From contig JAIUPQ010000003.1 in assembly GCA_020161145.1 (NCBI GenBank), forward strand, positions 426,610 to 490,609: DNA of 64,000 nucleotides. The letters run 5' to 3'. The stretch is from Pseudomonadota bacterium. Lineage in GTDB: Bacteria > Pseudomonadota > Gammaproteobacteria > Burkholderiales > Burkholderiaceae_C. The position numbers and the translations under genes were made by a program. This document shows, piece by piece, positions 10,834 through 50,847 of this stretch. The notes below the pieces were generated by a model that saw nothing but the letters and a program-made list of their open reading frames with translations, was not told the DNA's origin and searched no databases. Every line of letters begins with the position of its first letter. Positions within the stretch are counted from its first letter, which is position 1.

Positions 10834-11595
10834 TCAGGGTCGTTTTGCGTCCCCTTCAAAACGGCCCTTCTCAAGCGGAGGCAGTTGTGCTAAGCGGAGA
10901 TAGCCGCCGCGCATCAACGCATCGCCACGCCGCACCAGACGGCGCACCTTGGAGCGCAGGCCGCCGTCGCTGTACCAGTCGGCCACAGCGTCGGCACCGA
11001 ACAGTCCTTCGCCCACATCGCGCAAGGACGCGCCTGCGAGGGTCGCGTCGAGCGCCTGCAAGGTGTGCAGCTCCAGCAGCGCGGCGGGCGTCGGCCTGGG
11101 CTTGGTGGCGGCCTGGGCCGCGTCGAGCGCATGACCGCGCGCAGGCGCAAAGGCGCCGCCGCGATGGGCATAGGCGATAGCCATGCCGTCTTGCAGGCCA
11201 GGCGCGAGCGCGAAGCGCAGACACTGGCCGGGGCTGCGCGCGATCAGCGCCAGTCCCTTGCCATCGTGGAGAAGTTGCTTGTGGCCAGGGATACGCCAGA
11301 ACGCGAAGGGCTCGGCATCCACAGGCGGATCGGCATCGGGGTAGAGCTGCACTACATCAGCTTGGCCGGGCTGCCAGGCCGGATGCGCATCGCGCGCATC
11401 CAGCGCCGGGTCTTCCAGCACGCGCAAGCCCCAGCGATGCGCCGCATCGGCGCGGCGCGCACGGCGCAACCAGTCGAGCCGGTAATCGGGGTGCCTGCGC
11501 AGGTACTCCCAAGCCAGCGCAAGCGCATCCAGCCACAGGACATAGAGGTAAGCCGCAGTGGGATACCAGTGCGCGACATGATGATGATTGACCAT
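10834..11595 (-). CDS. DUF2285 domain protein (ICE-conserved, probable regulator)
   Basis: A 253-residue protein. The N-terminal part (ALAWEYLRRHPDYRLDWLRR) matches the short leader domain of this family, and the C-terminal 90 residues form the DUF2285 region (LHTLQALDATLAGASLRDVG through LRRKVRR-like basic helices), helical and basic and likely DNA-binding. The start at 11595 has GGGAG nine bases upstream. It is a constant member of Tn4371-type elements between repA/alpA and the DUF2958 gene. In rhizobial ICEs related short proteins take part in activating excision genes, so a regulatory role is plausible but not shown. Confidence 0.8.
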   Translation of the reverse strand: MVNHHHVAHWYPTAAYLYVLWLDALALAWEYLRRHPDYRLDWLRRARRADAAHRWGLRVLEDPALDARDAHPAWQPGQADVVQLYPDADPPVDAEPFAFWRIPGHKQLLHDGKGLALIARSPGQCLRFALAPGLQDGMAIAYAHRGGAFAPARGHALDAAQAATKPRPTPAALLELHTLQALDATLAGASLRDVGEGLFGADAVADWYSDGGLRSKVRRLVRRGDALMRGGYLRLAQLPPLEKGRFEGDAKRP

Positions 11596-11925
11596 GACCC
11601 AAGCTCCCGTCGAACAGCAGGAACGTCGCCACGGCGTCAAACATGCGGGAGCATCAAATCAAGTGGGAAATCCGGTTAAGCTGTAACGGCTGGTGTCAAG
11701 ACTGGTTGGCTCCGGCATGTTGCGTAATTCGTCCGAATGCGACGGCCGCATGGCACCAAAAACGTCATGCGGTACTGACACCGTGCCGGAAGCCGCATGA
11801 AAGATCGTGGCCGTTTCCGCCACACACGCACAGGCTTGGTGCAAGAGTGCTGATTCAGACTGGACAGGTCTGGAGCAAGACCGAAATAGTCTGAATGCGC
11901 TCAGCTTGGCCGTAGCACGAGCGGT
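11596..11925. other. 330-bp gap between DUF2285 and DUF2958 genes, no gene seen
   Basis: Base composition is somewhat AT-richer than in the flanking genes and no frame gives a protein-like reading. The leftward strand has a TTGACA hexamer near 11697-11702, but no clear -10 at the right distance. It probably holds the promoter of the DUF2285 gene. Confidence 0.5.
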
Positions 11926-12276
11926 TCAATCGACGACGGAACCGTTTTCCTGCGCCAAGCGCAGATATTCCGACAACGGGCGCATCGCCTGGAAATACAG
12001 ATCCCGCATCACGGGTTGCTGGCGCGGCCCGACGATGGAAGCAAGGTCGGAGAGTTTCACCGTCCCCAGCTCGGGCATGCTGATTCCCAGGTCGATCAGG
12101 CCATAGGCCGTGTCGCCGTCAGCGGGATCGAGCGAGGCCAGCAGCCAGGTGGCGTGTGCATCGGGAGTGAACAGCCGCACGGCCGGCAACGGGTCGTGCG
12201 ATTCACCGGCGGCGGCCCGCCGCCCGTTCTCCAGCAGCGCGGCGCGCTGCGCATCGGTAACGAGGGGAGCGTTCAT
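11926..12276 (-). CDS. DUF2958 family protein (copy 1)
   Basis: A 116-residue protein of unknown function in the DUF2958 family, a frequent passenger of ICEs and plasmids. The conserved core is RLFTPDAHATWLLASLDP, then AYGLIDLGISMPELGTVKLSDLA, ending with RDLYFQA. No catalytic motif is obvious. The ATG at 12276 has AGGAG eight bases upstream. A clear paralogue lies at 18573-18923; the two share the order LFTPDA-ATWLL, LIDLG/LCDLG and RDL. It is divergent from the XRE regulator, with a hairpin array in between. Confidence 0.85.
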   Translation of the reverse strand: MNAPLVTDAQRAALLENGRRAAAGESHDPLPAVRLFTPDAHATWLLASLDPADGDTAYGLIDLGISMPELGTVKLSDLASIVGPRQQPVMRDLYFQAMRPLSEYLRLAQENGSVVD

Positions 12277-12315
12277 CGTGGTGCTCCTGTTCCAACACGG
12301 AATGTCGGTTTTGCA

Positions 12316-12447
12316 CATCCACGCCAAAGCGTGGATGCGTATTCCACGAAAGCCGTGGAAACACGAAAGCGCAAAAGCGCAATTGTAGAAATCTGCAAAG
12401 GCACGTTGGCGGTTTTCCGGTTCTGTCGGAATCCGCAGAAGCGGATT
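12316..12447. repeat. Array of four short hairpins in a divergent intergenic region
   Basis: Four perfect stems follow each other: 12316-12337 (nine base pairs, loop CAAA), 12342-12360 (seven base pairs, loop AAAGC), 12369-12380 (four base pairs, loop AAAA) and 12430-12447 (seven base pairs, loop AGAA). The stems differ in sequence but every loop is A-rich. The array lies between the divergent DUF2958 and XRE genes. Possible roles include a single-strand origin, a protein-binding region or a structured leader. Confidence 0.6.
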
Positions 12448-12486
12448 TCCGTAAAAGCACGAATAAGGGCCAAAAGCATGAATGAG

Positions 12487-12507
12487 TTAAAAATAACGTG
12501 GTTTTAA
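12487..12507. promoter_or_regulatory. AT-rich dyad upstream of the XRE regulator
   Basis: TTAAAA and TTTTAA flank a nine-base spacer about 28 bases before the regulator's start codon, in the most AT-rich part of this region. An XRE repressor often binds a dyad over its own promoter, so this may be its operator. No clean promoter hexamers could be placed. Confidence 0.35.
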
Positions 12508-12534
12508 TTGTGCTGCGAATTGACGCTTCTGTCT

Positions 12535-12828
12535 ATGCAGAAGCGATCCATCCAGCGCGGCCGGCCAGCGGGCGCCACCACCTTCGACGCCGAATTGGCT
12601 CAAGCCTTCGGCGCGGCGGTGCGCGCGCTGCGGACGGAGCGCGGCATCGCGCAGGAATCGCTGGCGAACCTCGCTGGCATCGAGCGTTCGCACATGGGCA
12701 AGGTCGAGCGCGGCGAACACATGCCCACGCTGGCGATCATCTTCAAGATCGCCAGTGCGCTCGAATGCAGCACGGCGGTGCTGATGAGCGAGGCTGAGAG
12801 CCAGCTCGCAGCAGCGGCCCAGCCGTAG
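12535..12828 (+). CDS. XRE-family helix-turn-helix regulator
   Basis: A 97-residue Cro/CI-type regulator and the only rightward gene between the relaxase and the integrase. The helix-turn-helix domain (about 20-82) reads [20 protein letters not shown], then ANLAGIERSHMGKVERGEH, then PTLAIIFKIASALECS. The N-terminus is basic. The ATG at 12535 has no clear ribosome site; an upstream TTG at 12508 in the same frame is an alternative. Its lone opposite orientation next to a hairpin array and an AT-rich dyad suggests that it is the element's maintenance or transfer repressor. That role is inferred. Confidence 0.83.
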   Translation: MQKRSIQRGRPAGATTFDAELAQAFGAAVRALRTERGIAQESLANLAGIERSHMGKVERGEHMPTLAIIFKIASALECSTAVLMSEAESQLAAAAQP

Positions 12829-12840
12829 GCGCTGGGCCAC

Positions 12841-13035
12841 CGATCCGGCGCAGCCGGTTCGGGGACTTCAGGGGTGCCAAGCATCGCGCGGCGGGGATAG
12901 GCCGCAGGGCTTTCCCCTGGAGGCAAGCGCAGCGCCACCGGCGCGAAGCCGCGATAGGGATTGAAGCCGAATGGCCATGACGGCGAAGTCGGCATGGGGC
13001 GCAGCCCGCAAAGCCCGGTCGGCGCAGTGCGCCGA
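12841..13035. repeat. Family B intergenic repeat, copy 1
   Basis: A long non-coding sequence resembling 14063-14265, 18411-18540 and 20600-20713. Shared blocks include GATCCGGC, GGGGATAGGCC, CTTTCCCCTGGAGG, TTGAAGCCGAATGGCC and GGGGCGCAGCCCG. It lies beyond the 3' end of the DUF736 gene. It is G+C-rich with many short dyads and has no coding character. Confidence 0.65.
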
Positions 13036-13143
13036 ATCGCCCTGCATTCGCCCTGGCAACACGAAGTCATGGTGTGCTGCCCGACCACCACCATCACGAA
13101 GCTGGGAGAGCCAAGCCTTCCAGTCTGCTGATCCAAGCAGTAC

Positions 13144-13171
13144 AGCGCCCCGCCGCAATGGGCGGGGCGCT
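13144..13171 (-). terminator. Strong hairpin after the DUF736 gene
   Basis: AGCGCCCCGCC and GGCGGGGCGCT form an eleven-base-pair stem nine bases beyond the DUF736 stop codon. No T-run follows in the leftward direction, so termination is likely but may need help. Confidence 0.5.
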
Positions 13172-13179
13172 GGCGGCCG

Positions 13180-13494
13180 TCAGGCCGCCTGGGGCTTGCT
13201 GCGCGACCAGATCAGGTCGTGCGTGCCGTTCTCGCCTTCGATCAGGCGGGCGTAGACCGTGGCCGGGAACGAAGGATCGTCGAGGGTCACGGAGATGTAC
13301 TCGCGCCCGGCCTCGCTGGTCTTCTTCCACGCCGCGCCGATGTCGTGACTGGCGGCCTGCAGGCGGAAGTCAGGGGCCTTCTCGTTGTCTCCCTTGTCGT
13401 TGGGAACCAGCTTGACCTTGACGTTGAGCGTCAGGGTGCGAAGCGTGCCGGTGAAGCCGTCTTTGTCTGCGGTGAAGGTGCCGATGTTGGCCAT
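13180..13494 (-). CDS. DUF736 family protein
   Basis: A 104-residue protein starting MANIGTFTA, the hallmark of DUF736, a family common on plasmids and ICEs. The reading [20 protein letters not shown] is followed by a SLTLDD-like segment ([19 protein letters not shown]) and by DLIWSRSKP. The size and beta-rich pattern recall small single-stranded-DNA-binding folds, but no activity is established. The ATG at 13494 has GGAGA nine bases upstream. A strong hairpin follows the stop codon. It lies downstream of a 1.1-kb region without recognisable genes. Confidence 0.85.
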
Positions 13495-14595
13495 GATGTT
13501 TTCTCCGTTCGGTTGAACAAGGTTCGCGCCCATCGCGTCCTTGTTGTGATCCAGTCGGCGGGGGACGGGCTGGCTGCACCGCTTGCGGTCGCAACGCAGT
13601 GGAGAGCCGGGAGGCGAAAAGAATTTATCCCGCGAGGAATCTGCGCAGCAGAGGGGAAATTGTTTTCGCTGGACGGTTGCAGCCATGAAGCCCGAGGCGC
13701 AGCCGCGCCCCCGCCAGGATTCACAACAACACAAGGACGCCTTGGGCCGAACCGCTCCGAAAGGGGATGGGGCCGACTCGGCATCCCCGCACGAAGGCTG
13801 CACAGGCCCGCCCACTGACGCAGGCCAGGTCAACCACCCGACGACAAGCGAGAACGCCCCTGCCGCACCTTGGGGCGCTGGTCTTGAGGCGTGGTGTGGA
13901 AGCTCCATAGCGATGCCGGGCGGGATATTCGTGAACCGTCCTTCGTGACGTGATGGGCAAGAACCGCCAGCGTTGAGGACGGCACGCATTCCTGCAACCT
14001 GCCTCAGCAAGCCCCGGCGTACCCGTCCCAGCCCTGGCCATTGCGGCGGGGCGCTGGCCCGGCCGATCCGGCTAGCCGGTTCGGCGGCATCGAGGGGCGC
14101 CAAGCTCGCGCGGCGGGGATGGGCCTTTCGCCGATCCCCCGGAGGCAAGCGAAGCGCGCAGCGCCGCAGGCGCGAAGGCGTGAGGGATTGAAGCCGAATG
14201 GCCGTGACAGCGAAGTCGGCACGGGGCGCAGCCCGAAAGCCCGGCGGCGCATCGCGCCGACACGCCCAGGCCGTTCCAGATTTCCAAGCAGGAAACGCGG
14301 ATATGTCGCTGATGAAATGGAAGCGGCCCACGCTGCGGGGTATGCACGCGGCAAGCCGAAAACTGCTGATGATTCCCGCGCAGGGTGGGCGCTTCGGCTT
14401 GCAGGCCCATGTGGGCCTGCCCATTGTCGGGCGAGAGTCCCGCCTACTTCAACGCTGCCGCATGAGCCAGCGCGAAGGCGGCGGCGTTCTGATTTGGCTG
14501 TTGGCCTTGAACACCGGGCGCGGCCACTGCCGCGCCCGGATTTTGCGTTTCACCGTGCCCAGGACGGAACGACCTGGGCGCGGTGCTGAACGCGG
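13495..14595. other. 1.1-kb region without a recognisable gene; contains family B repeat
   Basis: Long open frames occur on both strands, but their translations are Arg/Pro/Ala-rich and match nothing I recognise, and several overlap one another. The region holds a small AT-rich patch near 13615-13675, family B repeat copy 2 (14063-14265) and a strong dyad at about 14512-14540 (CCGGGCGCGG with its complement, followed by ATTTT). It is long for an element otherwise packed with genes. Confidence 0.5.
14063..14265. repeat. Family B intergenic repeat, copy 2
   Basis: The fullest copy of the family. It begins with a GATCCGGC block, continues through GGCGGGGATGGGC, CGGAGGCAAGCGAAGCGC, AGGGATTGAAGCCGAATGGC and GGGGCGCAGCCCG, and ends near a CGGCGGCGCATCGCGCCG dyad. 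Parts match 12841-13035, 18411-18540 and 20600-20713. Confidence 0.65.
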
Positions 14596-14775
14596 TTATT
14601 CCTTCGTCTCGATGAGCCACCACACAGCACGCGGCAAGGCGCGGCCCGTGACGGGGTGAATGTCGGTGAGGTCGGCGCGGGCCGACCAGCCCGAGGGCGG
14701 GCGGTAGCCGCGCACGTCACCATCGCCGTGCCAGCGGCGGGCGCGCACCGTGCCGGGGGCGTAGATCGCCGCCAT
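14596..14775 (-). CDS. Small conserved-looking protein downstream of ParB, start uncertain
   Basis: The 59-residue reading begins MAAIYAPGTVRARRW and ends PRAVWWLIETKE; it looks like a real protein, unlike the other frames here. No domain is recognised. The ATG at 14775 has no ribosome site. A better site (AAGGAAAAG) precedes an ATG at 14804, but that start is 29 bases upstream and therefore out of frame. Either translation begins at 14775 or a single-base change has broken a longer gene. It follows parB on the same strand after a strong hairpin. Confidence 0.45.
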   Translation of the reverse strand: MAAIYAPGTVRARRWHGDGDVRGYRPPSGWSARADLTDIHPVTGRALPRAVWWLIETKE

Positions 14776-14824
14776 GCGCGGGCGCTGGTGGTGGTACGGG
14801 TCATGGGGGCTTTTCCTTTCAGCG

Positions 14825-14852
14825 AAGCGCCCCGGTCGAGGCCGGGGCGCTT
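14825..14852 (-). terminator. Hairpin after parB
   Basis: AAGCGCCCCGG and CCGGGGCGCTT form an eleven-base-pair stem 15 bases beyond the parB stop codon. There is no long T-run on the leftward strand, so it may terminate parB or attenuate reading into the small downstream gene. Confidence 0.5.
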
Positions 14853-14866
14853 GCCTTCGGCGTGAG

Positions 14867-16933
14867 TCAAGCGGCCAGCGCCTCGGCGGGTTCATCCGCC
14901 ATTGCCTCGGCATCCTCCGGGGCGTCCTGCTCCGGGCCTGCCTCCTGCGCGGCATCCTGCGGGCCTTCGGCCTTGAAGATGGCAGGCATCCAGCCCGTGC
15001 CATCGGCCAGCCGCTCGGCTTCGCTGGCAATGTCGGCCTTCTTGAGCTTTGCCAGCCGGGTGACGGATTCCGGTGCAAACGCGCCCACAGCATCCAGAAT
15101 CACGGCCTTGGAAACGTGCTTGAAGTAGCCTTCGGCGGTCGGCTGCCACCATGCGGCCATGTCGAGGCCCACGGCCTGCGCCAGTTCCGCGCCGGGCTGG
15201 TGCGGCGTGGCGCGGGGCGTCACCACGTCCACCGTGGAAGCCACGCACACGGCCAGCAGCCGCACCAGTTCGTCTTGCGGCTTCGCCAGCAGCGCGGCGA
15301 ACAGTTCGGCGCTGTCCTCCGGCAAGGCTTCGCCCGCCACCTGTTGCAGTTCGCGCAGTGCCACGGCGGCGAGAGCTTCCGGCCAGTCCGGGGCCATGCC
15401 TTCCAGCCGGTCTTGCACTTTCAGGCCCACGCCCAGCGGCAGAGAATCACGGCTGCGGCCATAGCGGCTTTCCTGCAAGACGACCTGCACCATGCCATGC
15501 ACCACGGCAGCCAGCGCAGCTTGCGGATGCCGTGCGACCTCGATTTGCAGTGCGGCGGTGCGGTGGGCGCTCAAGCGTTGCGCCAGCCGGTCGGACATGG
15601 CGGCGGTCTTGGGTTGCTCGTCGTCCTCGCCTTCGTCGTCGTTCTCGGCTTCGCCTTCGCTGCTGAAACCTTGGCGCAACCGTTCCAGTGTGCGCAGAGC
15701 CTTGGCCTCGGCCTCGCGCATCAGGCCGCGATGAATCACGGCCTCGCCGTTCCGGTCGATGGTGACGATGGCACCGGCTGCGGCCTTCACGTTCGCGCCG
15801 TAGTCCTGCAAGCCATCTTCCAGCGCCTGTAACTGCTCGCCCAGGGATTCGCCTTCCTCCTGCAAGGCGTCGGCCTTGTCCTCGTCGTCGGCGTCCATCG
15901 CAGCATCCACCGCTTCGGCGATTTCCTGCATCTTGGCTTGCAGCTTCTCGATGCGTGCGGCTTCGCGCTTGTTCGGCTCGCGCCGCTCCCTCGGCGCACG
16001 CTGGAAGGCGTGCAGATCGGCATGGGTCACGCCCGGCGTGGCATCCACCCACGCCCAACCCTCGGCGCGGACAGTAGCGGCGATGCCTGCCAGCTTGTCT
16101 TGCGCCAGCCGTTCCAGCAGCGCGGCATCGTTGAGGTACACGCCCGCATCGCCTTCCGCGAACAGGTCACGGCGGATGCCGCCGCCTGCGGCTTCGTAGC
16201 TGTCCAGTCCGACGAAGCGCACCAGCGGATGCCGGTAGGCGTCGATTTCCCTTTCGGTCAGGCGCTCGCGCAAGTGCGAGGGATGGCGCTGCCACTGCGG
16301 CGCATCGTAGAACACGCTTTCCTGCGCGGCGTGGTCGTCGGTGATGGAAAGGGCCATCAACTGGTCAAGGCTCACGGCATCGGCGCGATAGTCCGCCATC
16401 AGGCGCGGCGACACGTTCGCCAGCTTCAAGCGGCGCTGCACCACCAGCGGCGTAACGCTGAAATCCGCCGCAATGTCCTCGATGGGTCGGCCTTCGGCCA
16501 CCAGTGCCACGAAGGCTTCAAACTGGTCTGCCGGGTGCATGGCTTCGCGCTGCACGTTCTCGGTGAGGCTGGCCGTGCGGGCGGTGCCATCGGCCACCAG
16601 CAGGCAAGGCACTTCCCATTCCTTGCTGATGCGGTGCTTTTTCGCCAGCAGCTTCAACGCGGCGAGGCGACGGCCACCGGCGACCACCTCGTAATGCTCG
16701 CCATTGGCGGATGCGATCACGATCAGGTTTTGCAGCAGGCCGACACGCTGGATGCTTGCGGCCAGTTCGGGGATGGACATGCGCGGGGTCTTGCGCACGT
16801 TGTGGCCCGTGGGGCGCAGCACCAGCCGCGACAGCGGAACCAAAATCAGGTTCTTGGTCGGGTCGGCAGCTTCCAGCGGGATAGCGGCGGCGGTATTGAC
16901 GGTGCGGGCTTCGGTTTGGGTGATGGCGTTCAT
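14867..16933 (-). CDS. parB: Large ParB/RepB/Spo0J-family protein
   Basis: A 688-residue ParB-family protein. The N-terminal ParB nuclease-like domain (about 30-130) shows LVPLSRLVLRPTGHNVRK and the GEHYEVVAGGRRLAAL motif (a GxRR box), then TENVQREAMHP. A helix-turn-helix follows (about 140-185: EDIAADFSVTPLVVQRRLKL). The remaining 450 residues are a long helical, acidic extension (about 330-460 is rich in Glu/Asp/Ala) not found in chromosomal ParB. The start has AGGAG eight bases upstream. This long form is typical of plasmids and Tn4371-type ICEs; its role in partition is inferred from the domain. Confidence 0.88.
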   Translation of the reverse strand: MNAITQTEARTVNTAAAIPLEAADPTKNLILVPLSRLVLRPTGHNVRKTPRMSIPELAASIQRVGLLQNLIVIASANGEHYEVVAGGRRLAALKLLAKKHRISKEWEVPCLLVADGTARTASLTENVQREAMHPADQFEAFVALVAEGRPIEDIAADFSVTPLVVQRRLKLANVSPRLMADYRADAVSLDQLMALSITDDHAAQESVFYDAPQWQRHPSHLRERLTEREIDAYRHPLVRFVGLDSYEAAGGGIRRDLFAEGDAGVYLNDAALLERLAQDKLAGIAATVRAEGWAWVDATPGVTHADLHAFQRAPRERREPNKREAARIEKLQAKMQEIAEAVDAAMDADDEDKADALQEEGESLGEQLQALEDGLQDYGANVKAAAGAIVTIDRNGEAVIHRGLMREAEAKALRTLERLRQGFSSEGEAENDDEGEDDEQPKTAAMSDRLAQRLSAHRTAALQIEVARHPQAALAAVVHGMVQVVLQESRYGRSRDSLPLGVGLKVQDRLEGMAPDWPEALAAVALRELQQVAGEALPEDSAELFAALLAKPQDELVRLLAVCVASTVDVVTPRATPHQPGAELAQAVGLDMAAWWQPTAEGYFKHVSKAVILDAVGAFAPESVTRLAKLKKADIASEAERLADGTGWMPAIFKAEGPQDAAQEAGPEQDAPEDAEAMADEPAEALAA

Positions 16934-38429: not shown

Positions 38430-39512
38430 ATGCGTCGCATCGGCATCGCTGGCGCTGGGGTGTTGGGCCGTCTGCTGGCCTACCAGTTGGGTCAGGCCGG
38501 CCACCAGGTGACGGTGTTCGACCCTGCCACCGGACCGCAGCCGCCACAGGTTCATGCCGGCGCCGCGCCCGCGCCGGGCTACGCCGCAGGCTTCACTGCA
38601 GCAGGCCTGCTCAGCCCGCTGGCGCCACTGGAGTTCGGCAATGCCCAGGCCGCCTACATGGGCTGGCGCGGGCTGGCGCTGTGGCGCCACATTTGCCGCA
38701 CCCTGCCCGCCGCCACCGACGGGTTGCCGCTGATGCGCCAGCGCGGCAGCGTGATGGTGGCCCATCCTTCTGCCCCGGAAGCGGCCGCCCTGCTGCTGGC
38801 GCGCTGGCGCAACGCCCAGGACATCACGGCCGATTGGCCCGCACCGCGCCCGATGCGTGGCGCCGCCTTGCAGGCCCTGGAGCCGGCCGTGGCGGAGCAG
38901 CTGGACGGCTGGCTGTTGGCGGCCGAAGCCCAGATCCTGCCGCGCGAGACGCTGCACCAGCTGTGCCTGCACGCCCAAGGCGTCGATTGGCGCTGGGGCA
39001 CCGCCGTGCGGACCATAGGCGTGGCCTCCATCGAGCTGACGGACGGCAGCCGTTGGCGGGGTGACTGGGCCGTGGACTGCCGCGGCGCCGGTGCCAGCCC
39101 CGACGAGCCCATGCACCTGGTGCAAGGCCAGGCCTTGTGGCTGCATGCACCGGGCGTGAAACTGGCCCGTCCCTTGCGCCAACTGCACGCCACGTTGCGG
39201 CTGGACCTGGTGCCCCGGCCCGGCGGCGTGTTCATCGTCAGCGCCCAGCACACGCCCGACCATGCCGGCACGCAGCCCTTGCCCGATGCAGCGCAGCTGC
39301 AGGCCCTGGCCAGCGCGCTGGTGCCCGCGCTTGCGGATGCACAGGTCAAGCACCTGGAGACCAACCTGCGTCCAGCGCGCCAAGCCGCCTGCCCGCAGAT
39401 TCGCATCACGCCGGGCCTGCTGCGCATCACCGGCCTGCACCACTACGGCTGGCTGCTGGCGCCCACCGTGGTGGATGAGGCCCTGCCCCAGTTGGCACTG
39501 CTGGGCCGCTAG
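38430..39512 (+). CDS. ThiO-like FAD-dependent oxidoreductase (divergent paralogue)
   Basis: A 360-residue FAD enzyme of the D-amino-acid oxidase fold, clearly related to the thiO gene at 43325-44386 (same IGIAGAGVLGRL start, PGYAAGFTAAGLLSPL, GWRGLALWRHICRTLP and HYGWLLAPTVVDEA blocks). The dinucleotide motif GAGVLG is intact. It differs where the other copy reads GDFIVIGASEIESED: here the text is GGVFIVSAQHTPDHAG. That segment lies near the FAD and substrate site in glycine-oxidase-type enzymes, so substrate or function may differ. GGAGG precedes the ATG. It ends just upstream of the TPP riboswitch, so it is not under that riboswitch. Confidence 0.8.
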   Translation: MRRIGIAGAGVLGRLLAYQLGQAGHQVTVFDPATGPQPPQVHAGAAPAPGYAAGFTAAGLLSPLAPLEFGNAQAAYMGWRGLALWRHICRTLPAATDGLPLMRQRGSVMVAHPSAPEAAALLLARWRNAQDITADWPAPRPMRGAALQALEPAVAEQLDGWLLAAEAQILPRETLHQLCLHAQGVDWRWGTAVRTIGVASIELTDGSRWRGDWAVDCRGAGASPDEPMHLVQGQALWLHAPGVKLARPLRQLHATLRLDLVPRPGGVFIVSAQHTPDHAGTQPLPDAAQLQALASALVPALADAQVKHLETNLRPARQAACPQIRITPGLLRITGLHHYGWLLAPTVVDEALPQLALLGR

Positions 39513-39545
39513 GGGGTCGCGGCATGGCCGGTGCTAAAGTGACAG

Positions 39546-41566
<2,021 letters not shown>

Positions 41567-41574
41567 ACCGAAAG

Positions 41575-42093
41575 ATGGAGAAGAAAGTCATCATCATTGC
41601 TGGCCCGAATGGGGCAGGCAAGACGACTTTCGCGCGGGCCTTTCTGCCCATGGAGGCTGCCTGCCCGCGCTTCATCAATGCCGACCTGATCGCGGCAGGG
41701 CTCTCGCCTTTCGACCCGGCCCGTGTAGCCGTCACGGCCGCCAAGCTGATGCTGCACGAGTTGGACGCGGCGGTAGCCAGCGGGGAGAGCTTCGCGTTTG
41801 AAACCACGCTGTCTGGCCTCACCTACCTTCAACGCATCCGACATTGGCAATCGTTGGGCTATCGCGTCAGTCTGTTTTTTCTGAGCCTACCCAGTGCCCA
41901 ACTGGCCTTGGATAGGGTGGCCGAACGCGTCAAGCAAGGCGGGCACAACATCCCGCCAGAAGTCGTGATGCGCAGATACCTACGGGGGCGACATCTGTTC
42001 GAGCAGCACTATCGATATGCCGTCGATGACTGGGCGCTGATCGATAACAGCGGCGACCAGCCACGACTCTTGCAATGGAGCGAAGCACCATGA
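41575..42093 (+). CDS. Zeta-toxin-like P-loop kinase
   Basis: A 172-residue P-loop protein of the zeta-toxin family. The Walker A motif GPNGAGKTT is near the start (about 10-18); FINADLIAAGLSPFDP carries the Asp/sugar-binding segment; ESFAFETTLSG and RVKQGGHNIPPEVVMRRY contain the Arg residues that grip ATP phosphates. Zeta toxins phosphorylate UDP-N-acetylglucosamine; many short chromosomal members are uncharacterised. It starts eight bases after thiC and overlaps the next gene by four bases, so it is inside the thi operon with a probable antitoxin-like partner. Confidence 0.82.
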   Translation: MEKKVIIIAGPNGAGKTTFARAFLPMEAACPRFINADLIAAGLSPFDPARVAVTAAKLMLHELDAAVASGESFAFETTLSGLTYLQRIRHWQSLGYRVSLFFLSLPSAQLALDRVAERVKQGGHNIPPEVVMRRYLRGRHLFEQHYRYAVDDWALIDNSGDQPRLLQWSEAP

Positions 42094-42293
42094 CCCCCAA
42101 GCCCATCGAACAGGCACGCAACCCCGACTTGCGCGCCGCGATGCCCGCCTTGCGGCGTGCCGCCTTGCAAGCCCGTCGGATCGCAGCGCAAACCGGCACA
42201 GCCCTGGTTGTCGAGGTGGGGCATCGCATCGTGCGACGCACCGGCAAGGACCTGGCGGTGGTCGACCAAGCACCCAGCCAGCCCACGCCATGA
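42090..42293 (+). CDS. Small partner protein of the zeta-like kinase
   Basis: A 67-residue protein reading ARNPDLRAAMPALRRAALQA, then RRIAAQTGTALVVEVGHRIVRR. Proteins with this arrangement are commonly found directly beside zeta-like kinases and are taken as antitoxins. The start overlaps the kinase stop (ATGA), and the stop overlaps the next, broken, reading frame. The gene order (kinase first) is opposite to classical epsilon-zeta pairs. Antitoxin function is inferred from pairing only. Confidence 0.65.
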   Translation: MTPKPIEQARNPDLRAAMPALRRAALQARRIAAQTGTALVVEVGHRIVRRTGKDLAVVDQAPSQPTP

Positions 42294-42792: not shown

Positions 42793-43328
42793 CCACCGCC
42801 CTGCTCGTCATCGACCTGCAACGCGCGCTGTGTGAGGGCCGCTGGGCCATGGCCGGCATCGACGGCGTGCTGACCCGCGTCAACACCCTCACTGCCCGTG
42901 CCCGCGCGGCCGGTGCACCCGTGGCCTTCATCCAGCACCAAAGCAGCGAAGGCCCGCTGATGCCGGGCAGCGACGGCTGGCCACTCAGCCCCGCACTCAC
43001 CGTGCACCCCGGCGACTGGCGGGTGGACAAACGCCACGGCGACGCTTTTTTGCGCACCGACCTGCATGCCCGCCTGCAGGCCGCCGGCGTCACCGAGGTG
43101 TTGCTGTGCGGCGCCCAAAGCGACTTCTGCGTCAGCGCCACCGCCCAGGGCGCGCTCAGCCACGGCTATGGCGTCACCCTGGTGGCCGATGCCCACACCA
43201 CGCTGGCCAACGGCGTGCTCAACGCCGAACAGATCGTCGCCCACGTCAACGCCACCGTGCCGCAGATGGACAGCTATGGGCCACGCACGCAGGCGTTGCC
43301 CTGCGACACCGTGAGCTTCGCCGCATGA
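42789..43328 (+). CDS. Isochorismatase-family cysteine hydrolase
   Basis: A 179-residue hydrolase of the isochorismatase/nicotinamidase fold. The catalytic triad is visible: Asp9 in LLVIDLQ, Lys in RVDKRHGDAF, and Cys in LLCGAQSDFCVSATA. The cis-peptide region precedes the Cys as usual. Substrates of such proteins vary (nicotinamide, carbamates, isochorismate), so a role in thiamine salvage is only suggested by context. Its start overlaps the glyoxalase-fold gene and its stop overlaps thiO (both ATGA). Confidence 0.85.
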   Translation: MTTALLVIDLQRALCEGRWAMAGIDGVLTRVNTLTARARAAGAPVAFIQHQSSEGPLMPGSDGWPLSPALTVHPGDWRVDKRHGDAFLRTDLHARLQAAGVTEVLLCGAQSDFCVSATAQGALSHGYGVTLVADAHTTLANGVLNAEQIVAHVNATVPQMDSYGPRTQALPCDTVSFAA

Positions 43329-44386
43329 CCCCCCAGCGCATCGCCATCGCCGGGGCCGGCGTGCTCGGCCGCCTGGCCGCCTGGCAACTGGCCCGCGCCG
43401 GCCACCAGGTCTCGGTCTTCGACCCTGCGCCCGGCCCGCAGCCACCGGCCACCGGCGCGCTGGCCCGCTCGGCGCCTTACGCCGCCGGCTTCACCGCCGC
43501 CGGCATGCTCAGCCCCATTGCCGAGCTGGATGGCGCCGGCCCCGAGGTGGCACGCCTGGGCTGGCGCGCGCTGGCGCTGTGGCGCGGCATTTGCGACGCC
43601 ATCAACCCCAACCTGATGCGCCAGCACGGCAGCCTGCTGCTGGCCCATGGCAGCGACCTGGGTGCCGCCCAGCGCGTGCTGGCGCGGCTGACCGAAGCGC
43701 CCGAGCTGCCCGCGCCGCAACCGCTGAATGCCGCCGCCCTGCACGAGCTGGAGCCGGCCCTGGTCCCGCATCTGCATGCCTGGCTGCTGCCGGGCGAGGG
43801 CCAGGTGCTGCCGCGTGAGTTGCTGGCCGCGCTGGTGGCGGATGCACCCGGCGTGGACTGGCAATGGGGCCGCAGCGTGCAGACGGTGACGCCCGGCCGC
43901 CTCACGCTCGAGGACGGTTCGCTGCACACCGCCGACTGGGCGCTCGACCTGCGCGGCCTGGGCGCGCGCCCCGCTTCACCGCTGCGCGGCGTGCGCGGCG
44001 AAGTCGTCTGGCTGCACGCCCCCGGCGTGGCCCTCGCCCGGCCGTTGCGGCTGGCCCACCCGCGTCACCGCGTCTACGTGGTGCCGCGCCCGGGCGACTT
44101 CATCGTCATCGGCGCCAGCGAAATCGAGAGCGAAGACCGCAGCCCCGTCAGCCTGCGCAGCGCCGTGGAGCTGATGGCCGCCGCGCACAGTGTGCTGCCC
44201 GAGCTGGCCGAGGCGCGCATCGTGCACATGGAAGCCAACCTGCGCCCCGCGCTGCCCGACAACCACCCGCGCACCGAGGTGCAGCCCGGCCGCGTCGCCA
44301 TCAACGGCCTGTTCCGCCACGGCTGGCTGCTGGCCCCCGCGCTGCTGGCCGATGCGCTGGCCGCAGCCGACCTGCTGCCGTCATGA
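43325..44386 (+). CDS. thiO: ThiO, glycine oxidase for thiazole synthesis
   Basis: FAD-dependent oxidase that turns glycine into the iminoacetate used by ThiG, 353 residues. IAIAGAGVLGRLAAWQLA is the dinucleotide-binding motif; YAAGFTAAGMLSPIAE and DFIVIGASEIESED are typical of ThiO. It is followed without gap by thiS, then panD and thiG, which supports the assignment. The start overlaps the preceding hydrolase gene. A diverged paralogue (38430-39512) lies upstream of thiC. Confidence 0.9.
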   Translation: MTPQRIAIAGAGVLGRLAAWQLARAGHQVSVFDPAPGPQPPATGALARSAPYAAGFTAAGMLSPIAELDGAGPEVARLGWRALALWRGICDAINPNLMRQHGSLLLAHGSDLGAAQRVLARLTEAPELPAPQPLNAAALHELEPALVPHLHAWLLPGEGQVLPRELLAALVADAPGVDWQWGRSVQTVTPGRLTLEDGSLHTADWALDLRGLGARPASPLRGVRGEVVWLHAPGVALARPLRLAHPRHRVYVVPRPGDFIVIGASEIESEDRSPVSLRSAVELMAAAHSVLPELAEARIVHMEANLRPALPDNHPRTEVQPGRVAINGLFRHGWLLAPALLADALAAADLLPS

Positions 44387-44619: not shown

Positions 44620-45000
44620 TTGTTTCGTACCCTGCTCAACGCCAAGATTCACCGCGTCGCCGTCACCCACTGCGAGCTGCATTACGAAGGCTCCTGCGCC
44701 ATCGACGAAGACCTGCTGGACGCGGCCGGCATCTGCGAAAACGAGCAGGTCCACATCTGGAACATCAACAACGGCGAGCGCTTCATCACCTACGCCATCA
44801 AAGGCCAGCGCGGCTCCGGCATGATTTCGGTCAACGGCTCGGCCGCGCGCCGCGCGGCAAACGGTGATCTGGTCATCATCGCGGCCTTCGCCCAGGTGCC
44901 TGAAGACCAGGTCGCCACGCACAAGCCCCGGCTGGTGTTCGTGGACGCGCACAACCGCATCAAGGGCTCACGCGACCACGTGCCGGTGCAGGCGCTGTGA
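44620..45000 (+). CDS. panD: PanD, aspartate 1-decarboxylase
   Basis: Pyruvoyl-dependent enzyme that makes beta-alanine for pantothenate, 126 residues. The self-cleavage site is Gly24-Ser25 in [29 protein letters not shown] and GRINGSAA-like [20 protein letters not shown] are characteristic. It uses TTG at 44620 with AGGAG nine bases upstream. It lies between thiS and thiG, overlapping thiG by four bases (GTGA). A pantothenate gene inside a thiamine operon is unusual and would tie coenzyme A precursor supply to TPP level. Confidence 0.93.
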
Positions 45001-45782
45001 CCGTGGACGCCCTCACCGTCTACGGCACGCCGCTGGCCAGCCGCTTCCTGCTGGGCACCGCCGGCTACCCCTCGCCGCAGGTGCTGCGGGGTGCCATCGC
45101 CGCCTCCGGCGCCGAGGTGGTCACCGTGGGCCTCAAGCGCGCACTGGCGGCGGGCGGCGACAACGGCTTCGTCGACATCATTCGCCAGAGCGGCTGCCGC
45201 CTGCTGCCCAACACCGCCGGCTGCCGCACCGCGCGCGAGGCCGTGGCGCTGGCGCAGATGGCGCGCGAGCTCTACGGCACGCCCTGGGTCAAGCTCGAAG
45301 TGGTGGGCGACGAGTACACGCTGCAGCCCGACCCCTGGGAGCTGGTGGCCGCCGCCGAGACGCTGGTCAAGGACGGCTTCCAGGTCTTCCCCTACTGCAC
45401 CGACGACCTCGTCACCTGCCAGCGCCTGCTGGACGTGGGTTGCCAGGTGCTGATGCCCTGGGGCGCCCCCATCGGTTCGGGCCAGGGCCTGGCCAACCCG
45501 CTGGCGCTGCGCACGTTGCGCGCGCGGCTGCCCGGCGCGGTGCTGGTGGTGGACGCCGGCATCGGTGCGCCCTCGCATGCCGCGCACGCCATGGAGCTGG
45601 GCTACGACGCCGTGCTGCTCAACTCCGCCGTCGCCCAGGCGCGCGACCCCGTGGGCATGGCCGCCGCGTTCGGCGGCGCCATTACCGCCGGCCGCCAGGG
45701 CTACGTGGCCGGCATCATGGCCCGGCAAGACATGGCCGTGGCCACCACCCCCGTCGGCGGCCGCCCTTTCGTTCTGAAATGA
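44997..45782 (+). CDS. thiG: ThiG, thiazole synthase
   Basis: Forms the thiazole phosphate from deoxyxylulose phosphate, the ThiO product and ThiS thiocarboxylate; 261 residues. [18 protein letters not shown] starts the barrel, the Schiff-base Lys is in [17 protein letters not shown], and [34 protein letters not shown] and [12 protein letters not shown] are diagnostic. It starts at GTG within the panD stop. Immediately after its stop codon lies copy B of the 82-bp palindromic repeat, which may process or attenuate the transcript before thiDE. Confidence 0.95.
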
Positions 45783-45864
45783 CCCACCCCCTACGCGATC
45801 ACAGATCGCGCCCCCTTAAGGGGGCACTGCCAGTGGACCGGCCAAGCCGGATCCACGGCAGTCG
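45783..45864. repeat. 82-bp palindromic repeat, copy B
   Basis: Begins directly after the thiG stop codon. Its hairpins match copy A (23995-24076) stem for stem; differences are loop bases only, for example CCCCCT/AGGGGG around TA here and CC in copy A. Unlike copy A it lies between two genes on the same strand (thiG and thiDE). Confidence 0.8.
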
Positions 45865-45921
45865 CTTGGTTGGGGAGGTTGCATGCGTGATAGATGGTTC
45901 GCTGCGCAACGGGTATCCACT

Positions 45922-47439
45922 ATGAAGTCCCCCATCATCTGGAGCATCGCCGGTACCGACAGCGGCGGCGGTGCCGGCCTGGCCGCCGACCAACGCGCCG
46001 CCGATGCACTGGGCGTGCACCTGGCGCCGGTGGTGGCGGCCGTCACCGCGCAAAACACTGTGGCCGTGCCGCGCATCGAGGCCGTCTCCACTGCGCTGCT
46101 GGAGGCCCAACTGGACGCCCTGGCCGGCGACCTGCCGCCGCGCGCCCTCAAAACCGGCCTGCTGGCCAGCACCGCCCACGTGCACACCGTGGCCCGCTGG
46201 GCCGACCGGCTGGGCGTGCCGCTGGTGGTGGACCCCGTGCTGCGCGCCAGCACCGGCACCGCCTTTGCCGACGCCGACATCCTGGCCGCCTACCGCACCG
46301 AGCTGCTGCCGCGCGCCGCCCTCATCACCCCCAACGTGGCCGAGGCCCGCGCCCTGACCGGCCTGACCGATGCCAGCGTGCCCGAACTGGCCCAGGCGCT
46401 GCATGCGGCCGGCGCGCAGGCCGTGTGCATCACCGGGGGCGACAGTGGCGGCGACCAGGCCCTGGACTGGCTCTCGACCCCCCATGCCCAGGGCTGGCTG
46501 GCCTTGCCGCGCCTGCCCACGCCCCACCACCACGGCACCGGCTGCACCTTTGCCAGCAGCGCGGCGGCCGCCATGGCCCTGGGCTTCGTCGCCGCCGACG
46601 CCTGCGTGCTGGCCAAGATGGCCACCAGCTGGGCCCTGCGCCAGGCCCGCGCCATCGGCCAGGGCGCCGGCCCCGTCATCGCCCAGGCCGGCTTTGCCAC
46701 CCGGCCCGAGCTGCTGCCGCTGCTGAGTTGGGACGCCGCACCGCCACCCTCTGCGCCACCCTCTGCGCCACCACGTCCCACCGCGTTGGGCGCGCTCTAC
46801 GGCATCGTCGACAGCGCCCAGCGCGTGCGCCAGGCCATCGCGGCCGGCGTGCCCACGCTGCAACTGCGCATCAAGACCCCGGTCAACCCCGAGGCCTTGC
46901 GCACCGAACTGGCCCAGGCCATCGCCACCGCCCGCGCGGCCGGTGTGCCGCTGTTCATCAACGACCACTGGCGCGACGCGCTGGCGCTGGGCGCCCACGG
47001 CGTGCACCTGGGCCAGGAAGATGTGCTGGCGCTCGCCCCCACCGACCGCGCCGCGCTGGCCGCCAGCCCGCTGGAACTGGGCCTGTCCAGCCACAGCCTG
47101 TGGGAGCTGGCGCGCGCGCGCAGCCTGGCCCCCGCCTACGTGGCCTGCGGCCCCGTCTGGCCCACGCTGACCAAGGCCATGCCGTGGCAGCCGCAAGGCC
47201 TGGACAACCTGGCCTGGTGGGTGCAGATGGCCGGCGTGCCGGTGGTGGCCATCGGCGGCATCCTGACGCCGGCCCAGGCCCAGGCCGCCGCCGCCTGCGG
47301 CCCCGCCAGCGTCTGCGTGGTGCGCGGCCTGGGCCGCGACATGGCCGGCCCGGTGGCCACCTTCCAGGCCGCCATCGCGGCCGGCCGCGCCGGCGCGGCC
47401 GCACCCATCCCCACGCTGCCGCACGCCAGCCTGGGCTGA
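45922..47439 (+). CDS. thiDE: ThiD-ThiE fusion: HMP-phosphate kinase / thiamine-phosphate synthase
   Basis: A bifunctional protein of 505 residues. The ThiD half (about 1-260) has SIAGTDSGGGAGLAADQRA, KTGLLAST and the catalytic GTGCTFASS loop; it phosphorylates HMP and HMP-phosphate. A Pro/Ala linker (about 272-290) leads to the ThiE half (about 293-490), which has LYGIVDSAQRVRQAIAAG, LFINDHWRDALALGAHGVHL with the Asp and His of the TMP-synthase site, and GGILTPAQAQ. The ATG at 45922 matches homologues; an in-frame ATG at 45883 with GGAGG four bases upstream is an alternative. The fusion completes the pathway to thiamine phosphate. Confidence 0.92.
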   Translation: MKSPIIWSIAGTDSGGGAGLAADQRAADALGVHLAPVVAAVTAQNTVAVPRIEAVSTALLEAQLDALAGDLPPRALKTGLLASTAHVHTVARWADRLGVPLVVDPVLRASTGTAFADADILAAYRTELLPRAALITPNVAEARALTGLTDASVPELAQALHAAGAQAVCITGGDSGGDQALDWLSTPHAQGWLALPRLPTPHHHGTGCTFASSAAAAMALGFVAADACVLAKMATSWALRQARAIGQGAGPVIAQAGFATRPELLPLLSWDAAPPPSAPPSAPPRPTALGALYGIVDSAQRVRQAIAAGVPTLQLRIKTPVNPEALRTELAQAIATARAAGVPLFINDHWRDALALGAHGVHLGQEDVLALAPTDRAALAASPLELGLSSHSLWELARARSLAPAYVACGPVWPTLTKAMPWQPQGLDNLAWWVQMAGVPVVAIGGILTPAQAQAAAACGPASVCVVRGLGRDMAGPVATFQAAIAAGRAGAAAPIPTLPHASLG

Positions 47440-47443
47440 CCCT

Positions 47444-49510
47444 GTGCCGCTGCCCGCCAAGCTCACGCCAGCGGACACCACCCGAGCGCTGCGGCGCCAA
47501 CGCCTGCATGCCCAGCTCAGTGCCAGCGGCGCGCGCGGCCTATGGCTGCTGGGCGGCGCTGGCAGCGGCAAATCCACATTGGCCGCCATGTGGGCAGCCG
47601 AGCAGGCGGCACCGCTTCATTGGTTTCGCATCGACGCGGCCGATGCCGACTGGCCCACTGCCCTGGCCGCGCTGGGCAACCTGGCCGCCACCCGGCGACG
47701 GCGGCCACCCCCACTGCTGGCCCACCGCCCCGCCGTCGAAGCCCTGCGCGAACCTCAGTTGACCGGCCACCTGCAGCGCGTGCTGCGCGCCCTCCATGCC
47801 CATCTGGGCTCCACGGTGCTGGTGTTTGACGACGCCCACGCCGCCCCCACCCTGGAGCCCCTGCTGGAAGCCGCACTCACCGAAGCCCCGGCCGGCACCA
47901 CTGTCGTCGTCACCAGCCGCGAGCCCCCCGGCGAGGCCCACCTCGACAGCCTGCTGCGGGGCCACTGGCAGGTGCTCGACAACAGTGCCCTGGCCTTCAC
48001 CGCCGACGAGGCGCTGGCCTGGCTGACCCCGGCGCTGGGCCGCGAGCGCGCCGCCCAGGTGGCCGCGCGTGCCGGTGGCTGGGCAGCCGCCCTGGGCTGG
48101 CTGGCCCAGCAGCCGCGGGAGACCCAGCTGCGGCGCCAGTTGCAACGCCAACTCAGCCCCGGCGAGCACGCGCTGCTGGCCGCCTGCGCGCTGCTGGGCG
48201 ACGTCAGCGAGGCCGATCTGGCCGCCCTGGGCGGCTTCCAGTTGCAGGCCGACTGGGCCCAGGTGGCCCAGGCCCAGGCCGGCACCACGCTCAACGCCGA
48301 TGTGTCGGCCTCGCGCCCCGTGCTGGCCGCCAACGCGGCCGGCGCGGCCTGGGCCTTCTGGGTGGCCACCACACCCAACGGCGCGCACCTGCAGGCCAGC
48401 GCACTGCAAGCCGGCGAATGGGGCCCGCCGCAACCCCTGGCTGCCATGCCGGGCTACCTGGACGCCGTGGGCCTGCAAGCCGGCATGGACGCCGCCGGCA
48501 ACGTGCTGGTGAGCTGGGACGCCGGCAACGGCCCCGTGGTGCTGCGCCATGACGCCGCCAGCGCCACCTGGGCCGCGCCGCTGGCCCTGGGCGGCGGCGC
48601 CTGCCCTGGGGGCCTGGCCCAGCGGCTGGCCGTGGCGCCCGGCGGCGAGGCCGCGCTGCTGTGGCAGCGCAGCGGCGCCAACCCCGGCGTGTGCCTGCGC
48701 AGCGGCACTGGCGCCGGCTGGCAAGCGGCCCAGCCGGTGGACGCGGCCCTGGGTGCCACCGCCGTACCGCTGGCCCTGGCCGTGCGCAGCGGCGGCGACG
48801 CCCTGGCCGGCTGGACGGCAGCGCTGCCGCAAGGTGGCCTCTACACGGTGCGCGCCACCGCCGGCACCTGGGGCAGCCCAGTGGCCGGGCCAACCGGCGC
48901 CAGTGCGGTGGCCCTAGCCCTGGCCGAAGACGGCAGCGCCGTTCTGGCCTGGCGCGGCGACGACCCGCTGTTTGGCGGCAACATCTTCGCGGCCCCGGCG
49001 CGACCGGGTCAGGACTGGCGGGCGGCCACCCGGCTGGGCACGGTCAACAGCGGCTCCAACCTGCACGCCGCCTGGGCGGGCGCGCAGCGCTTTGCCGTGG
49101 GCTACAACAGCTTCAACAGCGGCCCGCAGGTGGCCACCGTGGACGCGGCCACCCAGCAATGGTCGGCCGCCCAGACGATGGCCGCCGGCCGGCTGGCGCT
49201 GCTGGGCACGCTGGCCGCCGACGCGCAAGGCCACCAGCTTGCCACCTGGCTGGGCAACAAACCTAGCGGCTTCGGGCTGGACCTGGGCCTGTCGGTGCGC
49301 GCGGACGGCAGCCTGCCCTGGGACGACGGCCTGCCCATCCTCACACCCCAGCCCACCAGCGCCTTGGACGCCACCGACCAGGCCCGCCTCAGCAGCGCCG
49401 CCGTCAGCAACGGCCTGGCCACGCTGGTGTGGCTGGACTGGGGTCCTGCCGACCCCGGCGAGCAGCCCACCCTGCGGGTGCGGGCCAGCCGCTTCAGGGT
49501 GGCGCCGTGA
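47444..49510 (+). CDS. STAND-type NTPase fused to a beta-propeller-like domain
   Basis: A 688-residue protein with two unlike halves. Residues 30-270 are a MalT/LuxR-type STAND NTPase: Walker A GGAGSGKST (37-45), Walker B TVLVFDDAH (124-132), the sensor VVVTSREPP (154-162), then helical arm segments. From about 285 on, five to six units of about 60 residues of the form A.W...G..L.A....G.W......L suggest a beta-propeller. There is no HTH, TPR or signal peptide. It starts at GTG four bases after thiDE, so it is part of the thi transcript. It could be a natural STAND-sensor protein or two genes joined by deletion. Function unknown. Confidence 0.7.
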   Translation: MPLPAKLTPADTTRALRRQRLHAQLSASGARGLWLLGGAGSGKSTLAAMWAAEQAAPLHWFRIDAADADWPTALAALGNLAATRRRRPPPLLAHRPAVEALREPQLTGHLQRVLRALHAHLGSTVLVFDDAHAAPTLEPLLEAALTEAPAGTTVVVTSREPPGEAHLDSLLRGHWQVLDNSALAFTADEALAWLTPALGRERAAQVAARAGGWAAALGWLAQQPRETQLRRQLQRQLSPGEHALLAACALLGDVSEADLAALGGFQLQADWAQVAQAQAGTTLNADVSASRPVLAANAAGAAWAFWVATTPNGAHLQASALQAGEWGPPQPLAAMPGYLDAVGLQAGMDAAGNVLVSWDAGNGPVVLRHDAASATWAAPLALGGGACPGGLAQRLAVAPGGEAALLWQRSGANPGVCLRSGTGAGWQAAQPVDAALGATAVPLALAVRSGGDALAGWTAALPQGGLYTVRATAGTWGSPVAGPTGASAVALALAEDGSAVLAWRGDDPLFGGNIFAAPARPGQDWRAATRLGTVNSGSNLHAAWAGAQRFAVGYNSFNSGPQVATVDAATQQWSAAQTMAAGRLALLGTLAADAQGHQLATWLGNKPSGFGLDLGLSVRADGSLPWDDGLPILTPQPTSALDATDQARLSSAAVSNGLATLVWLDWGPADPGEQPTLRVRASRFRVAP

Positions 49511-49667
49511 GTACCCGCGAGGCAGCGCATCAAAGCGATGCTTGGGAGTGGCTTCACTTCAGGCACGCATCCACTCATGAGAAAAAAGCCGATTGATGGG
49601 CGATTTCATGCAAGCGCGGAGATGGACGTAACTGTAAGGCCGACGGCGGCGACACGACGCTTGAGGG

Positions 49668-49814
49668 TCAGCGGTCGCGCTTAAAACTGCCGCACTCCCA
49701 ACTGCACTTGACCATCGAGCCGTCGGACTGCTCGATCAACACGGTCACCACATACAGCATGCGGTGCACATCGATACCGGCTACGCGCCGGTGCAGTGAC
49801 GACAAACCTTCCAT
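49668..49814 (-). pseudogene. N-terminal fragment of an IS110-family transposase
   Basis: The 48-residue reading has VAGIDVHRMLYVVTVLIEQS and ends CGSFKRDR before a stop. AGIDVH is the first catalytic motif of the DEDD/RuvC-like domain of IS110 transposases, normally followed by about 300 more residues that are absent. The start codon has a good AGGAG site, so the 5' end of the insertion sequence is preserved and the rest is deleted. Confidence 0.8.
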
Positions 49815-49929
49815 GACGATGCTCCTGTGAGTAAAGTGCACAGTGGCACGCAGGCGCGTCAACCGTGGCCAGTACACAGAGAAACTGCGCGAGCAGCCTC
49901 AGGGCAAACCGGTGAACTGGAAGACTCCT

Positions 49930-49957
49930 CGAACCGAAGTCGGTTCGGGCCTCTTTT
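49930..49957 (+). terminator. Terminator-like hairpin
   Basis: CGAACCGA and TCGGTTCG pair around an AG loop, followed by GGGCCTCTTTT. It could stop transcription coming from the thi operon before the membrane-protein gene. Confidence 0.55.
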
Positions 49958-50190
49958 ACCGTACGTGCTGCCACCTGCCTCACGGCAATGGGGCCGGCAG
50001 CATAACAGTCGGGGGTTCGAGCCAGCTCGGTGCAGGTCCGGTTAGGCTCCGGGGTCGGGCCTTCATTCGATTTGCGACCTCTTCGCGCCTGCGTGCCGCC
50101 TCACATGGTGCGCCCGTCCCTGGGCTTTAATGCTCGGGGGCGAGTGGATCAAACCATGAACAGTTAGGTTGCAAAGCCAGGAGCAGCGCC

Positions 50191-50847
50191 ATGCGAACGC
50201 CCAATCATTCGAGCCCTCTCGAGATCGTCGCAATCGGTGTTGCCGCCGCAGCAGTACTCTGGGGGATCGCACAGATTGTTCCGCCGATCTTCGAAGGTAT
50301 TGGTGTGGTGATCAAAGCAATTGGTGCGGCTGGAGGGTTGGCCGTCGCAGTTGGAACAACGGGATTTTCCACCGCGGGTACCGTCGCAACATGGCTAGCA
50401 CCGGTGGCTGCCGCAGGCGTCGCAGCGACTGGCGTCGGCGTAACGTACATTGTGTTGCACGTAGTTGTAGTGGGGGCCAAAGAGAAACCCTACGAGTGGT
50501 TGCTGCCAGCGTTGGGACTCCTGGCGGTCCTCTTCGTTGACCTGTCCAAGGATGAGTTGCTTGCCACGAATACCGAGCGGGCGCTATATGCACTAGTCAC
50601 CGGAGGTTGCGTCATCGGTGGCGGCGCTCTTCTGCTGAATCGGCGCTGCTGGGTTCGTGCCATTGGGTTCTTTGTCCCCTTTCTTCCAACATTTGTTGTA
50701 TGGGCGGCCTTTGTCCACAAAGGCCACATTGACAAAGGCCTTTCTGACTTCATTCGCTCCGGTTACGCCGGTGCGTTGGGGCTAGTGGGTGTGCTATCCG
50801 TGGGAGCCATAGTCGCACTTATAGGCATTGCACTCCCGAAGCGCTGA
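50191..50847 (+). CDS. Orphan integral membrane protein
   Basis: A 218-residue protein I do not recognise. It has about six to seven hydrophobic segments (roughly 10-35, 38-60, 62-95, 102-120, 132-150, 155-175, 190-215) with Gly/Ala/Val-rich stretches such as AVAVGTTGFSTAGTVATWLA. A polar loop (DLSKDELLATNTERA) lies in the middle. The codon use is less GC-rich than that of the neighbouring operons, and an IS110 relic is adjacent, so it was probably acquired. An AGGAG site precedes the start. No function can be proposed. Confidence 0.75.
   Translation: MRTPNHSSPLEIVAIGVAAAAVLWGIAQIVPPIFEGIGVVIKAIGAAGGLAVAVGTTGFSTAGTVATWLAPVAAAGVAATGVGVTYIVLHVVVVGAKEKPYEWLLPALGLLAVLFVDLSKDELLATNTERALYALVTGGCVIGGGALLLNRRCWVRAIGFFVPFLPTFVVWAAFVHKGHIDKGLSDFIRSGYAGALGLVGVLSVGAIVALIGIALPKR

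Follow-up and report, generated by a model that had tools for sequence, protein, structure and literature searches.

MalT, the STAND transcriptional activator of E. coli, is composed of a nucleotide-binding domain (NBD, residues 1–181), a helical domain (HD, 182–248), a winged-helix domain (WHD, 249–336) and an arm (337–423), with ADP held between NBD, HD and WHD and its β-phosphate bonded by a conserved WHD histidine (PMC10427625). STAND proteins whose C-terminal sensors vary take part in phage defence (PMC10907252). A 64,000-nucleotide stretch (the window) of a Burkholderiales genome (assembly GCA_020161145.1, contig JAIUPQ010000003.1, positions 426,610–490,609 of the forward strand) contains an open reading frame (ORF) of 688 codons (47444–49510, forward strand), which joins the N-terminal quarter of a MalT-type STAND regulator to a β-propeller of an otherwise exported family. 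A sequence-only reading of this ORF had left two interpretations: either the protein is new and serves in signalling or defence, or a deletion has fused two genes. The present analysis favours the latter: a lineage-specific in-frame deletion probably merged a MalT-type STAND regulator gene with an exported propeller gene.

Two homologies in one reading frame

The ORF starts with GTG four bases past the stop codon of thiDE (47437–47439). From the base make-up by codon position, the chance of the frame staying open is ~0.18 for the N-terminal and ~0.04 for the C-terminal part, and each of the two other forward frames carries merely one or two stops in either part; at this local composition, openness is weak evidence. 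The feature is considered real because homology was found on both sides, which confirmed the open frame with a MalT-like N-terminal and a propeller C-terminal half.

The N-terminal part (residues 1–264; 47444–48235, forward strand) comprises the N-loop, the NBD, the HD and the start of the WHD, where it is cut. It retains the letters GGAGSGKST, VLVFDD and TSRE, which we take to be Walker A, Walker B and a sensor-like motif, respectively, in line with the motifs named in the sequence-only reading; an NBD with both Walker motifs, as in MalT-type STAND regulators, is thus present. The NCBIfam profile PRK04841 (MalT) matched residues 3–236 (E 1.7e-17; 62.7 bits versus a family cut-off of 537), the stretch over which N-loop, NBD and HD align with MalT. 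The window protein covered positions 3–242 of the 903 in this profile, and two intact relatives reached 342 and 411. Pfam returned AAA_16 below its cut-off, and the best solved Foldseek match of the structural model was MalT itself (8bob, E 8.3e-10). Unlike in MalT, the STAND front is followed by a propeller. Neither the sensor repeats nor the C-terminal DNA-binding domain were matched in the window protein by Pfam or NCBIfam, in agreement with the earlier statement that helix-turn-helix and tetratricopeptide repeats are missing.

Several alignments locate the end of the STAND homology. With the nearest relative, BLASTP stopped at residue 258, and matches from genome searches stopped at 261 and 262. 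In a MAFFT alignment around the GGW motif, which 25 out of 65 relatives possess within range, the register held to LAALGG (~264), beyond which most of the 25 relatives continue. STAND regulators from Burkholderiales, e.g., that of Piscinibacter defluvii (L078:8378–11194), share 36–39 % identity with the window protein over the front 260 residues but, unlike the latter, are full-length proteins of ~900–1100 residues; no propeller match was obtained in any STAND frame of 38 regions and 23 further loci. A complete WHD closing the NBD-HD-WHD module was not found, the homology ending at ~264 (~234 by hmmalign), and on either estimate the alignments leave the switch module incomplete. The intact NTPase core claimed earlier is thus not borne out as a switch.

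The C-terminal part (residues 271–688; 48254–49507, forward strand) could be aligned over its whole length with six homologues, which come from five genomes of the same family of bacteria. Its repeat pattern is shared by the exported propeller proteins of this family (L079, L080, L081, L082 and L083, as well as L185 in the genome under study). Counted by eye, it contains a complete run of eight repeats, each headed by W, as is characteristic of this exported family; the propeller-like repeats described earlier are therefore present in frame, but number eight rather than five to six. All six homologues carry export signals by reading (lipoprotein or Sec-like starts, four of them with a lipobox). 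The family possesses a signal peptide and a linker, whereas the window copy has neither: in agreement with the earlier reading, inspection of the sequence by eye revealed no signal peptide or lipobox, and the frame begins with the MalT-like N-loop. Pfam did not match the propeller half on its own. Since the full-length model rendered the propeller poorly (mean predicted local distance difference test score, pLDDT, 66.6), residues 265–688 were modelled separately (predicted template modelling score 0.81, mean pLDDT 73.8, residues 265–278 disordered). The best solved Foldseek match of the propeller was PLL3 (6t96, E 7.1e-9), with Photorhabdus propeller lectins followed by sialidases and lyases; the modelled fold thus resembles that of the PLL/PHL propeller lectins, and any lectin or sialidase activity is putative. 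Two further propeller proteins with export signals by reading were detected in the same genome (at C2 and C6) using a homologue as query; both diverge from the window propeller (BLASTP E 1.1e-6 and 0.62), which as query matched only its own copy in 16 genomes of the genus.

Between the two parts, residues 265–270 (FQLQAD; 48236–48253, forward strand) could not be assigned confidently to either side, the register of the N-terminal part stopping at ~264 and the propeller homologues being aligned from W271. The full-length model is confident up to residue ~220, falls mostly below a pLDDT of 50 over residues 250–289 and stays below 50 across the junction (256–289). The join cuts inside the conserved WHD, the N-terminal homology ending at ~264.

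Search for the layout and neighbourhoods of the halves

Match counts include the genome under study and are lower bounds where given as such, since four (propeller half), six (N-terminal half) or two (whole protein, order) candidates were scored per genome. The whole protein was matched in 5 of 40 relatives and in at least 50 of 399 order members, the propeller half in at least 9 and the N-terminal half in at least 49 of 399 family members. With these few candidates per genome, no match joining both parts was obtained besides the window's own among the 40 relatives, 399 family members and 399 order members. One apparent second fusion (G599, reported over residues 15–314) was rejected; BLASTP covered merely residues 28–190, and no propeller was present. 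In genome_contigs, none of 90 stretches retrieved by pattern with the whole protein was confirmed as a relative. A four-sequence alignment of the N-terminal part confirmed at least 23 loci there, and among the matches listed propellers occurred solely at the Piscinibacter locus, in separate frames. The single stretch from viral_contigs was not confirmed as a whole-protein relative, and plasmids yielded none. The two-domain layout was accordingly not encountered a second time in these collections or in the relatives' genomes, by scans that distant cases would escape. None of the titles among the top-ranked literature matches dealt with a comparable fusion of STAND and propeller, which counts as a weak negative.

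In a tree of 67 N-terminal rows (66 different), the window protein groups with sequences from three genomes (G295, G201 and G090; support 95/86), that of Piscinibacter defluvii SH-1 (G295, NZ_ML137198.1) being nearest (94/80). There, two genes for RCC1-propeller lipoproteins (11347–13779 and 13796–15922) lie behind an intact STAND regulator (L078:8378–11194, stop to 11197) and share its strand, the first beginning 149 bases past the regulator; both propellers are separate and exported. In G090, a beta-helix lipoprotein gene lies behind the STAND regulator on the same strand (L118:6586–9864). Both Piscinibacter lipoproteins match ZU5, and the start of the G090 lipoprotein looks alike by eye.

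Thirty-eight STAND neighbourhoods, picked from the better matches (some genomes represented twice, several regions ending at contig ends), were screened with six proteins (two of RCC1 type, four of the window's type), so that other kinds of propeller would escape. A general enrichment of propellers beside STAND genes, suggested by a script that flagged 4 of 39 regions (two of them from G295), was not upheld: the match in L117 proved to be an immunoglobulin-like stretch on reading, and the gene in L134 lies ~4.7 kb away. Pairing of STAND and propeller genes thus belongs to individual loci and does not mark the STAND family in general.

Origin of the fusion and competing explanations

The halves point to different compartments (cytoplasm for the STAND part versus envelope for the propeller), the boundary cuts a domain on the N-terminal side and falls in the linker on the C-terminal side, and the layout was encountered in one assembly only. 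All three features are explained by one deletion between neighbouring genes. One parent would have been the gene of a STAND transcriptional regulator; the other, most simply the next gene downstream of it, would have encoded an exported propeller protein. NBD and HD would have been kept from the regulator, whereas most of the WHD would have been lost together with arm, sensor repeats and DNA-binding domain; the propeller would have been kept whole, but without its signal peptide and linker. Transcription of the fused gene along with the thi genes would yield a protein located in the cytoplasm; nucleotide binding may persist, but the protein would neither close into an ADP-held off state, nor bind DNA, nor arrive at the envelope. 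The product is probably neither a switch nor exported, and the fusion is most likely neutral or non-functional. Both homologies, the position of the cut, the export signals read in the propeller's relatives and the lack of a second case in these searches are observations; we infer the deletion, the co-transcription, the loss of function and the adjacency of the parents, the latter from relatives of one half only. With the cut domain, the exported propeller family, the single copy and the separate neighbouring genes of a relative, the deletion fusion considered in the sequence-only reading thereby gains support.

Several observations weigh against this reading. Both halves are coding-like in composition (G+C at third positions 0.86 in the N-terminal and 0.92 in the C-terminal half), hence there is no sign of decay. 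Past residue ~234, hmmalign left the window protein unaligned, residues 235–264 resting on pairwise and MAFFT alignments. The window protein sits on a long branch (1.4), the fork with G295 has a support of 94/80, and the bootstrap had not settled. The Piscinibacter propellers are of RCC1 type, not of the window's type, G295 is the only one of the 38 neighbourhoods with a propeller gene adjoining the STAND gene, and the scan that revealed the G090 lipoprotein found no lipobox neighbour beside the STAND gene of G201. A parent pair of the fusion was not found. Finally, the fusion is known from the assembled contig alone. This, the missing parents and a repeat located ~300 bases downstream of the fusion stop would fit a chimaeric contig, two genes that are separate in the living cell having been joined by the assembly. 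Such an artefact appears unlikely, however, since the join is in frame and well within a contig of 490,609 bases, one of 13 in an assembly rated as 100 % complete (0.16 % contamination), and no other STAND C-terminal piece was found in this assembly (by a search without positive control).

A functional two-domain cytoplasmic protein, with a STAND nucleotide switch and a propeller sensor serving in signalling or phage defence, would account for the retained Walker A, Walker B and sensor-like motifs, for a frame and a coding-like composition maintained across the join, and for a propeller complete from its first repeat. It would also have a precedent in phage-defence STAND proteins with variable C-terminal sensors (PMC10907252). 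In Avs/AVAST and other STAND defence proteins, a STAND core is likewise joined to a repeat domain at the C-terminus. In contrast to these, the STAND module of the window protein is incomplete, no N-terminal effector domain was seen, and no PADLOC model matched at E ≤ 0.01. Moreover, the propeller family is exported by reading, and the searches made revealed no second occurrence of the layout. With kept motifs and coding-like composition as its positive evidence, a functional fusion, and with it the role as a new signalling or defence protein that had initially been one of the two readings, is improbable in view of the absent PADLOC match, the cut WHD, the exported propeller family and the single copy. 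Least probable of all would be a recently arisen protein of the cytoplasm whose shortened STAND core, released from autoinhibition by the winged helix, is coupled to a propeller resembling lectins; expressed under the control of thiamine, it would have a real function in ligand-driven assembly.

The thi locus and related loci in the family

As the sequence-only reading had indicated, the fusion gene, which the deletion would have created, is located at the end of the thi operon, four bases behind the thiDE fusion gene (45883–47439, forward strand; named by reading). The cluster is headed by a thiamine pyrophosphate riboswitch ahead of thiC (39542–39641, forward strand; Rfam RF00059, E 2.8e-10), and a simple sigma-70 scan detected no promoter-like site in 45700–50200; co-transcription of the fusion gene with the thi genes is therefore plausible. 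A search with ThiDE returned some match (E ≤ 0.001) in 12 of the 15 other genomes of the genus, seven of them strong. Downstream regions were compared in five of these seven (G001, G003, G006, G007 and G013; only ~1.9 kb in G003), G008 and G009 with their short contigs being left out; with a rough gene caller and reading, other genes were found behind thiDE and neither a STAND nor a propeller gene was seen. The refuting observation named in the sequence-only reading, relatives that encode both parts as two genes at this very place, applies in part only: regulator and propeller genes are separate in Piscinibacter defluvii, but they are not situated behind the thi operon in the examined stretch, and the five genus-mates have neither. 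The repeat downstream of the fusion gene (49804–50168, no strand assigned) is 82 % identical to another stretch of the assembly (G000, C10:210812–211173) and was judged an insertion sequence-like remnant by eye only.

The thi cluster itself displays further features. Two ThiO-like (DAO) genes, 49 % identical, are located ahead of the riboswitch (38430–39512) and among the thi genes (43328–44386). At 41527–42293, directly behind thiC, there is a zeta-toxin-like kinase gene (PF06414, E 1.6e-10) with a small overlapping frame after it; a glyoxalase-like gene (match below cut-off) and one for an isochorismatase come next. Within the cluster, thiG is directly preceded by a gene for a panD-like aspartate decarboxylase (44620–45000; PF02261, E 1.3e-49).

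Besides the STAND loci, a divergent pair was observed in the genome under study (L185:5273–10286) and in G287 (L080:1935–6808), where an exported propeller lipoprotein gene stands beside a gene for a regulator with winged helix-turn-helix, kinase and tetratricopeptide repeat domains. The pair is conserved between both genomes (regulators 66 %, lipoproteins 57 % identical).

The fusion is, on the favoured reading of an in-frame deletion, a lineage curiosity rather than a new defence switch, and illustrates how the joining of two genes can give rise to what looks like a new combination of domains. Such fusions may be recognised by a simple check of whether the boundary respects the domains, whether the halves agree on compartment and whether a second lineage shares the layout. 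Of more lasting interest is that at some loci in this bacterial family large cytoplasmic regulators, of the STAND or the winged helix-turn-helix-kinase-tetratricopeptide repeat type, adjoin genes for exported repeat lipoproteins.
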